Of a stretch of DNA of 64,000 nucleotides, positions 56,682-62,758 are shown piece after piece. Position 1 is the first letter of the stretch. Each line of letters begins with the position of its first letter. Under the pieces are notes generated by a model, which searched no databases, was not told the DNA's origin, and was given only the letters and a program-made list of their open reading frames with translations. The position numbers and the translations under genes were made by a program. Source of the DNA: Halorussus halophilus (GTDB lineage Archaea; Halobacteriota; Halobacteria; Halobacteriales; Haladaptataceae); assembly GCF_008831545.1 (NCBI RefSeq), contig NZ_CP044523.1:3286001-3350000 (forward strand), in the 5' to 3' direction.

Positions 56682-56701
56682 ACCCCCTCGTTTCAGGTGG
56701 A
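56682..56701 (+). promoter_or_regulatory. ORB-like element A (downstream of DP1 gene)
   Basis: ACCCCCTCGTTTCAGGTGGA, matching the haloarchaeal origin recognition box (its reverse complement is the G-rich TCCACCTGAAACGAxGGGGT type). It lies in the 71-base gap between the convergent GNAT and DP1 genes. Confidence 0.6.
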
Positions 56702-56723: not shown

Positions 56724-58400
56724 TTAGCTGAACTGCCGAACGGTCATGTCCAACGTGTCGAGGTCGAGAATCGGCGCGAACCCGGCGTCGGGGTCGATGT
56801 TGACAGACTTCTGGAACTCCGTCTGGGCCTGCCAACAGCCCGAGTTGACCGCGAGGACGTTGTGGTACTTGCCCCATCCCAACTTGTGGACGTGGCCGGT
56901 GTGGAACACGTCCGGCACCTCGTCCATGACGAGATAGTCCTTCTCTTCGGGTGCGAGGCGCGTCTTGCCGCCGAACTGCGGGGCGACGTGGCGCTTCTTC
57001 AGTAGCTGGTACATCGCCTTGTGCGGTTCGTCGTAGCTCGCTTTCTCCTCGGGCAACTCGGCGATGACCTCGTCCAGCGAGACGCCGTGGTACATCAGGA
57101 TGTTCACGCCCTCTACGTCCACCATCGACGGGTTCCCCGTAATCCGGGCGTCGTGAGCCGACATGATGTCACGAAGTTCCTCGTCGAAGCCGGGTTGCGG
57201 TTCGGCGAGTCGCACCGCGTCGTGGTTGCCCGGAATCATCAGAATCTCCATGTCGCCGGGCACTTCCTTCAGATACTCCGAGAACTGCTCGTACTGGTCG
57301 TAGATGTCGATGATGTCGAGTTCGTCGTCTTGGTTCGGGTAGACGCCGACGCCTTCGACCATGTCGCCCGCGACGAGCAGGTACTCGATGCGTTCTGCCT
57401 CCTCGGTGTGGAGCCAGTCGGCGAAACTCGACCACGCGTCGGCCATGAACTCTTGGCTACCGACGTGTACGTCGCTGATGAGCGCGGCCTGCACGTGGCG
57501 GTCTGCGGTGTTCGGCTTGTAGGTGCGGGGCACGTCCGGGAAGTAGAGGTCGTCTACGAACAGAATGCCGTCGCCGTCGTCGTTGTCGTCCGAGAGCGTC
57601 CCTTCGACTGCGATGACCTCGTCGTGGAGCAGTTCGTCAACCGCGTCGGCGAAGTCGCGGTCCTTCATGACGAGACAAGGGTACGTTCCGCTCGTGTCTT
57701 CTAGCTCGATTAGCCAGTGACCGCTCGCCGTCGAGCGAATGTCGCTGACCATCCCGACGATGGCGGTGTCACCACCACCGGGCATCTTCTGGATTGCCGA
57801 CGTCGGGCGAGCGTTGACCCGAGACCGAAGCTGTTTCGAGAGTCGCTGGAACCGGTCGCGGAACACGGAGACGAAGTCCTTGTACTCGCCAGTTCCCGTA
57901 CTCTCACCGGTGATGTCCTCCATGACTTCTAGCGAGCGCGCGTCGAAGTCGGGGTTCCGAACCGATTCGTCAGGTCGGGTTACGTCGGTGGTCGCGCCTG
58001 AATCTGGCCCGCTCGACCGTCCGGAGGCCGAGGAACCGCCCGATTCGACCCCCTTCGTTTCAGGTGGAGAGGTAGAACTAGTCGCTGAAATTTCTCCGGA
58101 ATTAGCTCCATTCGAACTACTGGTAGTCGAACTACTGGAGGTAGTTTCACGCGAAGTGGCGTTGTTTGCAGTCGTTCCGTTGTTGTTTCCAGTCGCTCCG
58201 TTCTGGTCCAGTTCGGCCAGTACGGAGCGAACGTGAGACGCCGAGAGTATCAATGCGTCCTCGGGTGCGTTCTCCACGACGGCCTCCACCGCGGCGGTGG
58301 GGTCGTCTGTACCTGCGATGAGTGTCACCGCTTCGCGGTCGGCGTTGTAACCGCGACTGGTGAGTTCACTGACGATACGAACCGGCGTCTCCAGCGGCAC
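56724..58400 (-). CDS. polB: DNA polymerase D small subunit (DP1)
   Basis: A 558-aa small subunit of the archaeal replicative polymerase PolD, with 3'-5' exonuclease activity from a calcineurin-like phosphoesterase core. Metal-binding motifs are SDVHVG (309-314), GDMVEG (345-350), GNHD (391-394), MYHGVSL and HTGHVHKLG near the C-terminus. An OB-fold domain precedes it (about 205-290). The N-terminal domain (1-65) is joined by a long low-complexity linker (66-148) rich in Asn, Ser and Thr; inside it SPPETKGVE (111-119) is encoded by an origin recognition box (58048-58068). It starts with GTG, 120 bases from the divergent signal peptidase gene. Confidence 0.95.
   Translation of the reverse strand: MPLETPVRIVSELTSRGYNADREAVTLIAGTDDPTAAVEAVVENAPEDALILSASHVRSVLAELDQNGATGNNNGTTANNATSRETTSSSSTTSSSNGANSGEISATSSTSPPETKGVESGGSSASGRSSGPDSGATTDVTRPDESVRNPDFDARSLEVMEDITGESTGTGEYKDFVSVFRDRFQRLSKQLRSRVNARPTSAIQKMPGGGDTAIVGMVSDIRSTASGHWLIELEDTSGTYPCLVMKDRDFADAVDELLHDEVIAVEGTLSDDNDDGDGILFVDDLYFPDVPRTYKPNTADRHVQAALISDVHVGSQEFMADAWSSFADWLHTEEAERIEYLLVAGDMVEGVGVYPNQDDELDIIDIYDQYEQFSEYLKEVPGDMEILMIPGNHDAVRLAEPQPGFDEELRDIMSAHDARITGNPSMVDVEGVNILMYHGVSLDEVIAELPEEKASYDEPHKAMYQLLKKRHVAPQFGGKTRLAPEEKDYLVMDEVPDVFHTGHVHKLGWGKYHNVLAVNSGCWQAQTEFQKSVNIDPDAGFAPILDLDTLDMTVRQFS
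58048..58068 (+). promoter_or_regulatory. ORB-like element B (inside the DP1 coding sequence)
   Basis: ACCCCCTTCGTTTCAGGTGGA: one extra C compared with the 20-base ORBs near cdc6, otherwise an excellent match. It lies in the disordered-linker part of DP1, where the protein would tolerate it. Confidence 0.65.
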
Positions 58401-58520: not shown

Positions 58521-59282
58521 ATGAGCCCTCCTGGAGATAAATCCTCCTCGGACGATGGCGATTCCTCCCCCTCGGACAGTAGTGGTTTCGCTCCGCTATT
58601 CTACGTGCGGCAGTTCCGCGACAGCGACAACGAGGCCGTCGTGTTCGTTCGCGAGATACTGAGTAGTGCTGGAATCGTCCTCGCCATCGGACTCCTGCTG
58701 TTCGCCATCAGTGGCGTTTGGCCTCCGATGGTCGCCGTCGAGAGTCCGAGCATGGAGCCACAGATGGAGCGTGGTGACCTGATTTTCGTCATGGAGGAAC
58801 ATCGTCTCGCGCCGGACGCGGCGACGGATGGGACGGGCGTCGTGACATACCAGCGAGGTCAGCAAGCGGACCACCAGAGCTTCAACAAGGCCGGAGATGT
58901 GATCATCTTCAGACCGGACGGAAGTAGGCGAGAGACGCCTATCATCCACCGTGCGCGGTTCTGGGTCGAAGAGGGAGAGAACTGGTACGAGAAGGCGAAC
59001 GAGTCGCACCTTCCTGCTGGCGTCGATAACTGCGAAGAGTTGCGCGCCTGTCCTGCTCCCCACGCAGGATTCATCACGAAAGGTGACAACAACGAACACT
59101 ACGACCAAGCCGGTGGCATCGTCGGCGAACCGGTCAAGCCGGAGTGGATTCGGGCCACCGCCGAGGTGAGGATTCCGTGGCTCGGTCACCTCAGGCTGTT
59201 CTTCGCGCAATCGAGCGTTCCCAGCGAGCCCTCCGTTTCGAATCGAGTGCCGATCGACCTCGTGCCGGACCCGGAAAATTGA
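58521..59282 (+). CDS. sec11: Signal peptidase I, Sec11 type (copy 1)
   Basis: A 253-aa membrane protease cutting signal peptides from secreted proteins. After an Asp/Ser-rich cytoplasmic N-terminus comes one membrane helix (about 49-70, AGIVLAIGLLLFAISGVWP), then the active site: Ser77 in ESPSMEP, the histidine that replaces the bacterial lysine, H143 in IIHRARFW, and D189 in TKGDNNEHY, the archaeal Ser-His-Asp arrangement. C171 and C177 may form a disulfide. It heads a two-gene operon with an almost duplicate gene 26 bases downstream. Confidence 0.92.
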   Translation: MSPPGDKSSSDDGDSSPSDSSGFAPLFYVRQFRDSDNEAVVFVREILSSAGIVLAIGLLLFAISGVWPPMVAVESPSMEPQMERGDLIFVMEEHRLAPDAATDGTGVVTYQRGQQADHQSFNKAGDVIIFRPDGSRRETPIIHRARFWVEEGENWYEKANESHLPAGVDNCEELRACPAPHAGFITKGDNNEHYDQAGGIVGEPVKPEWIRATAEVRIPWLGHLRLFFAQSSVPSEPSVSNRVPIDLVPDPEN

Positions 59283-59308
59283 CAACCGCTGAAAGATAAG
59301 TGGACCCA

Positions 59309-60064
59309 ATGAGTTCTCCCGGTGACGACCATTCGTCGGATAGTGAGACGCGGCCCGATGCCAGCGAACGAGATTCTCGTCGGGCCGCCTCCGACGGCGG
59401 CGGACGGTCGCAGGGCGACCACGGTTCGGGTCCGATGTCGTACGTGCGGCAGTTCCGCGACAGCGACAACGAGGCCGTCGTGTTCGTCCGCGAGATGCTG
59501 AGCAGTGCTGGAATCGTCCTCGCCATCGGACTCCTGCTGTTCGCCATCAGCGGCGTCTGGCCTCCGATGGTCGCCATCGAGAGCGGTAGCATGAACCCGC
59601 ACATGCAGAAAGGCGACCTCGTCTTTATCATGGAGGAAGGCCGACTCGCGCCCGCTGCGGCCCACGGCGATACCGGAGTCGTGACCTACCAGAGAGGCCA
59701 GCAAACGGGCTACACGAAGTTCAAGGAACCCGGCGACGTCATCGTCTACGAACCTGACGGCAAGAGTTACGCGACCCCGATAATCCATCGCGCGCGGTTC
59801 TGGGTGGACGAGGGCGACAACTGGTACGAGATGGCGGACAAGGAGTACATCGGTAGTAACGTGGATAGCTGCGAGGAGCTAGCGAATTGTCCCGCACCGA
59901 ACTCGGGATTCATAACGAAGGGTGACGCGAACCAGTACTACGACCAGTCTAATAGGATGGGTCCGATCAGCGATCCAGTAGAACCGGAATGGATTCGCGG
60001 CACTGCCGAGGTTCGCATCCCGTGGCTCGGTTGGGTCCGACTCCAGTTCTCCGGCGCGGCGTAG
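59309..60064 (+). CDS. Signal peptidase I, Sec11 type (copy 2)
   Basis: A 251-aa paralogue of the preceding gene with the same layout: long polar N-terminus (about 1-45, Ser/Asp/Arg-rich), membrane helix at 67-84, S94 in ESGSMNP, H160 in IIHRARFW, D206 in TKGDANQYY, and the cysteine pair C188/C194. All catalytic residues are present in both copies. A 135-base stretch (59441-59575) is nearly identical to copy 1 while the rest has diverged. The ATG context CCCAATGAG is the same as copy 1; a GTG nine bases upstream is discounted. Confidence 0.92.
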   Translation: MSSPGDDHSSDSETRPDASERDSRRAASDGGGRSQGDHGSGPMSYVRQFRDSDNEAVVFVREMLSSAGIVLAIGLLLFAISGVWPPMVAIESGSMNPHMQKGDLVFIMEEGRLAPAAAHGDTGVVTYQRGQQTGYTKFKEPGDVIVYEPDGKSYATPIIHRARFWVDEGDNWYEMADKEYIGSNVDSCEELANCPAPNSGFITKGDANQYYDQSNRMGPISDPVEPEWIRGTAEVRIPWLGWVRLQFSGAA

Positions 60065-60127: not shown

Positions 60128-61618
60128 TCAGTTTTCGAAGCGCGCCTGTACGAACGGCTGGATGTTCTCGATGTCGCCGAGTCGAGAGTCCGACATCAGG
60201 ACGGCTTCGGTTTCGTCGATGGGTACCGAGAGACTGATTTCCTTCGTCCGTCCGTAGCGACCCTTGCTGACCACGACGGCGTTGACGATGCCGAGCATGT
60301 CGAGTTCGCTGATAAGGTCGGTGACGCGGCGCTGCGTGAGCACGTCGGCGTCGATTTCCTCGCAGAGTCGCTTGTAGATGTTGTACACCTCGCCCGTGTT
60401 GATGTTGTGGACGCCGTTCTTCTCCAAGGAGATGATGGAGAAGAGGACCAGTTTCGATTGGGTCGGTAGAGTTCGGACGACTTCGACCACGCGGTCCAGT
60501 TCTATCTTCTCCTGAGCCTTCCGGACGTGTTTCTCGTTGACGCCCTCGGCTTGGTCACGCTCGGCGAGTTCGCCTGCGGTTCTGAGGAGGTCGAGCGCAC
60601 GCCGGGCGTCACCGTGTTCCTGCGCGGCGAAGGCGGCACAGAGCGGAATCACGTCGTCCGACAGCACGTCGGTCTTGAACGCCACGTCAGAGCGGTGCTG
60701 AAGGATGTCTCGGAGCTGGTTGGCGTCGTACGGTGGGAAGACGATTTCCTCCTCTCCGAGCGACGATTTGACTCTGGGGTCGAGGAAGTCGGTAAACTTC
60801 AGGTCGTTGCTGATACCGATGATAGACACGCGCGAATTGTCCAACTCGGAGTTCATCCGCGAGAGATTGTAGAGGGTGTCGTCGCCGGACTTCTCGACCA
60901 GTTTGTCGATTTCGTCCAGCATGATGACGACGACCCGCTCCTCGTAATCGACGGCCTCGAAGAACGTGTTGTAGACGCGGTCGGTCGGCCACCCTGTCAT
61001 CGGGACGGGTTCCATCTCCTCGCGGTCGGCCTTCCGTTCCTCGATTCGGCCCTCTATTTCGTCTGGAGCGTCGAATTCGGTGTCGTCCAAGGCACTCGGA
61101 TTGCTCTGGGCTTCTTCACGCAGTCCTTCGAGTTCCTCGATTCGGTCGGTGATGAACTCGCGGTTGTTCTCGATGAACTTGTTCGCCAACTGCGCGAGGA
61201 CGCGGTACTGCGTGTCCGTCACTTCGCAGTTGATGTACTCGACGTTGCAGGGTACCTTGTACTTCTGGGAGGTGCTCTCCAGTTCCTTGCTGACGAACTT
61301 CGCGCTCGCCGTCTTGCCGGTCCCAGTCTTGCCGTAAATGAGGATGTTCGACGGCGTCTCACCGCGGAGCGCGGCGACGAGAATCGTCGCCATGTTGTTG
61401 ATCTGGTCCTTACGGTGTGGGAGTTCGTGTGGAGTGTAGGACGGCCGAAGGACCTCCTTGTTCTCGAAAATCGGTTCGCCGCTGAGTAGGTCGTCGAACA
61501 GCCCTTGGTCGCCGTCGTCGTCGTCGAGGACCACGTCGTCTAAATCGACGTTGTCGAAACTTCGGTCTGGACTGACTTCGACCGTCTCGTCCGTCGATTG
61601 TGTATCTTCGTCCGTCAT
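60128..61618 (-). CDS. cdc6: Orc1/Cdc6 origin-binding initiator
   Basis: A 496-aa AAA+ initiator protein that binds ORBs and loads the MCM helicase. Walker A is GKTGTGKT (96-103), Walker B MLDEID (233-238), sensor I IIGISNDLKF and the initiator-specific linker. The C-terminal winged helix (from about 390, RVVEVVRTLPTQSKLVLFSI) contacts the ORB. An acidic insert (about 155-205) is longer than in Sulfolobus Orc1-1, as in haloarchaeal Orc1. Start at the ATG of MTDEDTQ; a GTG 75 bases upstream is an in-frame alternative. It faces an origin region with ORBs, so it is the origin-linked Orc1 of this replicon. Confidence 0.95.
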   Translation of the reverse strand: MTDEDTQSTDETVEVSPDRSFDNVDLDDVVLDDDDGDQGLFDDLLSGEPIFENKEVLRPSYTPHELPHRKDQINNMATILVAALRGETPSNILIYGKTGTGKTASAKFVSKELESTSQKYKVPCNVEYINCEVTDTQYRVLAQLANKFIENNREFITDRIEELEGLREEAQSNPSALDDTEFDAPDEIEGRIEERKADREEMEPVPMTGWPTDRVYNTFFEAVDYEERVVVIMLDEIDKLVEKSGDDTLYNLSRMNSELDNSRVSIIGISNDLKFTDFLDPRVKSSLGEEEIVFPPYDANQLRDILQHRSDVAFKTDVLSDDVIPLCAAFAAQEHGDARRALDLLRTAGELAERDQAEGVNEKHVRKAQEKIELDRVVEVVRTLPTQSKLVLFSIISLEKNGVHNINTGEVYNIYKRLCEEIDADVLTQRRVTDLISELDMLGIVNAVVVSKGRYGRTKEISLSVPIDETEAVLMSDSRLGDIENIQPFVQARFEN

Positions 61619-61626
61619 GTGGTTCG

Positions 61627-61646
61627 ACCCCTTCGTTTCGGGTGGA
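61627..61646 (+). promoter_or_regulatory. ORB element D (upstream of the cdc6 start codon)
   Basis: ACCCCTTCGTTTCGGGTGGA, 8 bases upstream of the cdc6 ATG. If transcription starts at the TATA near 61770 the box lies in the leader; a bound initiator there could limit its own expression. Confidence 0.7.
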
Positions 61647-62399: not shown

Positions 62400-62419
62400 A
62401 CCCCATTGTTTCGGGTGGA
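62400..62419 (+). promoter_or_regulatory. ORB element E (left of the AT-rich segment)
   Basis: ACCCCATTGTTTCGGGTGGA, extended on its left by a C-rich run (the G-string on the other strand, about 62387-62404). It faces away from the AT-rich segment. Confidence 0.75.
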
Positions 62420-62593: not shown

Positions 62594-62613
62594 TCCACCT
62601 GAAACGAAGGGGT
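62594..62613 (-). promoter_or_regulatory. ORB element F (right of the AT-rich segment, inverted)
   Basis: TCCACCTGAAACGAAGGGGT on the plus strand, the reverse orientation of all others; extended on the right by GGGGGTG (62613-62620). With element E it brackets the AT-rich segment at a spacing of 174 bases. Confidence 0.8.
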
Positions 62614-62738: not shown

Positions 62739-62758
62739 ACCCCTCTGTTTCGAGTGGA
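62739..62758 (+). promoter_or_regulatory. ORB element G
   Basis: ACCCCTCTGTTTCGAGTGGA, same orientation as E and 125 bases beyond F. Confidence 0.7.

Follow-up and report, generated by a model that had tools for sequence, protein, structure and literature searches.

The DP1 gene (polD1) of haloarchaea, which encodes the small subunit of PolD, carries ORB sequences in the region coding for its linker, typically as an inverted pair with fixed spacing, and these sequences are preserved at the DNA level. Comparison of sequences indicates that the pair is probably a conserved non-origin Orc1-binding site, which would regulate either the availability of the initiator or the expression of DP1. The DNA-level preservation of the boxes thus points to a previously undescribed use of the origin-binding protein by the cell; no description of ORBs in DP1 was found in the open-licence papers, the scope of our search.

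The ORB in the DP1 gene of Halorussus halophilus

The window analyzed here is a stretch of 64,000 nucleotides from the genome of Halorussus halophilus. DP1 is encoded on its minus strand (56724..58400; an ORF of 558 amino acids, with the linker at approximately residues 69-150) and was recognized by matches to the Pfam profiles DNA_pol_E_B, Metallophos and OB fold, that is, by the combination of an OB fold with a calcineurin-like phosphoesterase domain, the OB match falling marginally under its cut-off. The first-pass annotation of this DNA had placed an ORB inside the DP1 coding sequence, encoding SPPETKGVE in the linker, and both statements are borne out. The box reads ACCCCCTTCGTTTCAGGTGGA on the plus strand of the window (58048-58068) and TCCACCTGAAACGAAGGGGGT on the coding strand of DP1, where the codons TCT CCA CCT GAA ACG AAG GGG GTC GAA specify residues 111-119. 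It corresponds to a core ORB, TCCACCTGAAACGAAGGGG (58050..58068, minus strand), which we denote the right arm, and this 19-mer is a perfect copy of the right ORB of oriC1, GGGGTGGGGG (62594..62612, plus strand). Both this oriC1 ORB and the left one, GGGGTGGGGGG (62401..62419, minus strand), include the halophile G-string. The candidate binder is the product of the orc1/cdc6 gene of oriC1 (60128..61618, minus strand; Pfam matches Cdc6_C, Cdc6_lid and AAA), to which the identity of the DP1 motif with the oriC1 ORBs points.

With up to 3 mismatches allowed, the window contains 5 ORB matches, whereas shuffled sequences give an expectation of 0.01, and the whole 4.45 Mb genome contains 10, all inside one stretch of ~113 kb around oriC1. 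These counts, together with the complete lack of hits in the reversed-pattern control described below, rule out a chance origin of the DP1 box. On a scoring matrix trained on 278 oriC1 ORBs, in which an arm was counted when it exceeded 5 bits, the right arm of the window scores 28 bits. The left arm, which is inverted and spaced 57 bp from the right one, is intact in many relatives, and at its place the window has a degenerate sequence with 7 mismatches, TCCATTCGAACTACTGGTA (58107..58125, plus strand); the DP1 gene of the window has kept a strong right arm and lost most of the left one. The linker is tentatively predicted to be unstructured, with pLDDT of ~25-30 for residues 71-150 compared with 71-92 for the first 70, in a model that was built from a shallow alignment and is poor beyond the N-terminal domain.

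An inverted ORB pair preserved in haloarchaeal DP1 genes

We compared 221 distinct DP1 genes, from loci collected in named genomes and in 145 genomes drawn across the class. Among the first 90 DP1 linkers scanned, the box was present in an identical reading frame in nearly all, and most linkers contained a second box on the opposite strand, its start 57 bp from that of the first. In the complete set, the right arm exceeds 5 bits in 196/221 genes, the left arm in 160/221, and both in 144/221; the spacing in these 144 two-arm genes is 57 bp in 130, 54 bp in 10, 69 bp in 3 and 72 bp in 1. The arms are 19-20 bp each, with the G-strings facing outward, as at oriC1, and the right arms score as core ORBs (median of 25.3 bits, compared with a median of 36.6 and a minimum of 22.3 for the oriC1 ORBs). 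Rather than a single box, the ancestral feature of DP1 is a pair of inverted ORBs held at a fixed distance.

A 76-bp pattern representing the pair, searched with at most 3 mismatches, was detected in 120 of 194 haloarchaeal genomes, with a single occurrence in 117, and the reversed control yielded 0; the pattern was not found in any of the 164 non-haloarchaeal relatives searched, which represent other classes of the same phylum. Of the 3 genomes with two copies, 2 hold a true second site inside orc1 and 1 reflects a duplicated contig end. By these searches, the DP1 pair is effectively single-copy per genome and haloarchaea-wide. One or both arms exceed 5 bits in 134/143 genomes, and the remaining 9/143 imply that the pair can be lost. 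Both arms are well preserved in the Haloarcula genomes analyzed, and they are weaker in most Haloferax.

The first-pass annotation had further proposed that selection acts on the DNA sequence rather than on the protein, a view that would fall if synonymous sites within the motif evolved as freely as those around them. Across the 221 genes, this is not the case. For each linker, 100 synonymous versions were generated with the codon usage of the species; the real right arm outscored all 100 in 207/221 genes, the left arm in 187, and either arm in 217. The third bases of the right arm scarcely vary (T 99, A 99, A 100, G 99 and G 97 percent), and those of the left arm are C 89, T 87, T 84 and A 83 percent; codon usage predicts less than 10 percent at five of the fixed third-base codons, and the fixed base usually runs against codon bias. 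Divergence of third positions from the codon usage of the species amounts to 1.8-3.7 bits at seven motif codons, compared with maxima of 1.03 bits in 397 core codon columns and 0.45 bits in the remaining linker. For this column analysis, genes entered the right-arm set if that arm exceeded 5 bits (196/221), which entails mild selection, and the left arm was unselected. The genomes are related and, hence, not independent; the core codon columns share the same history and so serve as a control. Beyond the boxes, the column-by-column analysis of third bases detected no conserved DNA element in the linker.

The amino acids vary where these third bases are frozen. Codon 5 encodes K, E, G or R, yet is nearly always RRG, and codon 0 encodes S, V, T, A or P, yet ends in T in 99% of the genes; proline is nearly always CCA. 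It could be argued that the linker motifs PSVSTG and PxETxG are conserved as protein, with the likeness to ORBs a by-product, given that some residues are nearly constant (the E encoded by GAA, and a G), as are the frame and the spacing. The chance of this is next to negligible, considering that residues change where the DNA does not and that synonymous recodings lose the ORB, and we rejected a protein-level motif as the selected feature on these grounds. The phase of the box is identical in all DP1 genes that carry it; other reading frames could yield a stop or basic and aromatic residues, which would explain the constant frame. Selection for an RNA or DNA hairpin formed between the arms, which are inverted repeats and perfect ones in some genomes, is extremely improbable as well: most of the variable positions pair no better than in arms exchanged at random among genomes, with a modest excess at positions 6 and 12 only, so that the arms do not covary convincingly, and the hairpin was rejected.

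Core ORBs, oriC1 and the location of orc1

Two kinds of ORB can be distinguished. In the ORBs of oriC1, the core is followed by TGGGGG, with 85-100% conservation at each position; the core and, mostly, the T also occur in the DP1 arms and in the boxes located after DP1 and between oriC1 and orc1, where the G-run is lacking. After the core, the DP1 arms mostly continue with T and then C, and so differ from the full haloarchaeal ORB. In Haloarcula hispanica, the extended halophile G-string is essential at oriC1 (PMC3936714). We infer that Orc1 may bind the core boxes without these serving as origins. The NNN triplet of a DP1 arm agrees with that of the oriC1 of the same genome at a level of 0.23, compared with 0.154 in shuffled pairs (sd 0.03), a weak signal that could reflect phylogeny.

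It is very unlikely that the pair is a secondary or backup origin, an oriC1-like arrangement able to load MCM. The inverted orientation and the outward G-strings do match oriC1, but the pair is devoid of the G-string that is essential in H. hispanica, its arms are 57 bp apart, whereas those of oriC1 have a median separation of 226 bp, and it lies within coding sequence around a 38-bp spacer of 64% GC, only slightly below the linker as a whole (0.64 and 0.69, respectively). In a replication origin, by contrast, the inverted ORBs would enclose an AT-rich unwinding region in intergenic DNA beside orc1.

Core ORBs also occur elsewhere near and inside replication genes. In the window, one, TCCACCCGAAACGAAGGGG (61628..61646, minus strand), lies 10-28 bp ahead of the start codon of orc1, without the halophile G-string; across genomes, the core ORBs between oriC1 and orc1 are oriented toward orc1 in 132 cases versus 4, a bias that suggests autoregulation. 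Another core ORB, TCCACCTGAAACGAGGGGG (56683..56701, minus strand), is located just past the DP1 stop codon, with an equivalent site in most Halorussus. Beyond the right box of oriC1, there is one more core-type ORB without the G-string, TCCACTCGAAACAGAGGGG (62740-62758). In genomes of the Natrialbaceae type (a family assigned by its named members), orc1 has a low-complexity insertion in the AAA+ region, for example, in loci L135 (761-2593) and L139 (412-2229). This insertion includes a core ORB whose codons are frozen in the same way, which came to light through the tracing of second copies of the pair and not by design. Among orc1 insertions of at least 100 amino acids, the ORB is in the same phase in 38/44, and 42/44 beat 50 recodings; a second arm, weak in score, often accompanies the box at 48 bp.

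In 120/143 genomes, orc1 and DP1 share a strand and are no more than 6 kb apart. In the other 23, DP1 is on the opposite strand, on another contig or 11-193 kb away, some of these separations being only apparent and caused by contig ends. Of these 23 genomes, 21 retain one or both arms above 5 bits; hence, the pair travels with the DP1 gene, and its loss upon unlinking from orc1 was not seen in most cases. In genome G061, ~1.5 Mb separates the DP1 pair from what appear to be the ORBs of oriC1. Persistence of the pair at tens of kilobases from orc1, and at ~1.5 Mb in this genome, fits titration or gene regulation rather than a role that depends on proximity in cis. The same genome contains an inverted ORB pair with oriC1-like spacing (G061:C1:1776722-1777057), ~1.35 Mb from orc1 (430977), as if the origin and the initiator gene were separated. 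Two similar tandem genes, which look like signal peptidases, occupy the space between orc1 and DP1 in the window (58521-59282 and 59300-60064).

Complete scans of 14 genomes gave 128 ORB matches, of which 110 fall within 150 kb of orc1, against ~10 expected. Outside the window, more ORB-like sites are found in genome G000 (contig C1, at 3354350, 3354684, 3358116, 3431538, 3443976 and 3455343), up to ~110 kb from orc1, and the scatter around orc1 is similar in other genomes. A scatter of this kind in the 14 genomes would be compatible with a different DNA-binding protein that shares the motif, such as a segregation or nucleoid factor acting like ParB on parS within genes near bacterial origins. 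However, the core and the T after GGGG closely match the oriC1 ORBs, and we know of no segregation or nucleoid factor with an ORB-like motif in haloarchaea, so that we consider this alternative highly improbable.

Possible roles of the DP1 pair and comparison with known systems

In the mechanism that we propose, the oriC1-type Orc1/Cdc6 would bind the inverted pair in polD1 without replication starting there. The pair would then sequester Orc1, or feed the level of Orc1 back on replication genes, acting alongside the core ORB before orc1 and, in one family, the core ORB inside orc1. In its broader form, the proposal is that haloarchaea keep dedicated non-origin Orc1 sites around oriC1, partly within polD1 and orc1, which set initiator availability or couple occupancy to the expression of replisome genes; we consider the chances of this generalization to be about even.

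The main rival is local control of polD1, whereby Orc1 on the pair would block or slow RNA polymerase within the gene, so that the synthesis of DP1 would be coupled to free Orc1; this would be gene regulation, distinct from titration of Orc1 for the origin. Such control would accord with the retention of the pair in DP1 genes that have moved or been inverted with respect to orc1, with its location a few hundred base pairs into the gene, and with the core ORB before orc1, which suggests a shared regulatory box. An operator, however, would usually be found at the promoter, and the linker contains no other conserved DNA element. On balance, we regard local control as possible but rather doubtful.

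The limits on Orc1/Cdc6-dependent initiation in archaea are poorly known, and titration has so far been suggested on the basis of a single intergenic cluster of ORBs. The pair in polD1, an essential polymerase gene, is class-wide and single-copy, with its synonymous sites frozen, and offers a precise, readily changed target that can be recoded with the protein unaltered. Searches confined to intergenic DNA beside orc1/cdc6 miss conserved ORBs of this kind.

Bacterial parS sites lie inside genes near oriC and resemble the DP1 boxes in being a DNA motif preserved in coding sequence near an origin; the protein and the role differ. The haloarchaeal oriC1 ORBs, which are Cdc6A/Orc1/Orc7-dependent (PMC3528665, PMC3936714), have in common with the DP1 pair the core TCCANNNGAAACG(A/G)AGGGGT, the inverted arrangement and the outward G-strings, whereas the DP1 pair is inside coding sequence, has its arms 57 bp apart rather than about 200-340, and is without the extended halophile G-string. 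In Haloarcula hispanica, oriC2D, a cluster of ORBs downstream of cdc6E, limits oriC2, likely via Cdc6 titration (PMC3936714). Here, too, ORBs are located away from the origin proper, and initiator titration has been proposed; however, oriC2D is intergenic, comprises 11 ORBs and belongs to another origin/initiator pair, whereas the DP1 module consists of two boxes in a gene. In Escherichia coli, datA and the DnaA boxes of the dnaA promoter (cited in PMC3936714) are non-origin initiator sites that limit initiation or initiator synthesis. They provide a working analogy only; the initiator is unrelated, and these boxes are not known to be embedded in replisome coding sequence in a similar manner. 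If the proposed role is correct, the DP1 pair would be an archaeal counterpart of control by datA and DnaA boxes.
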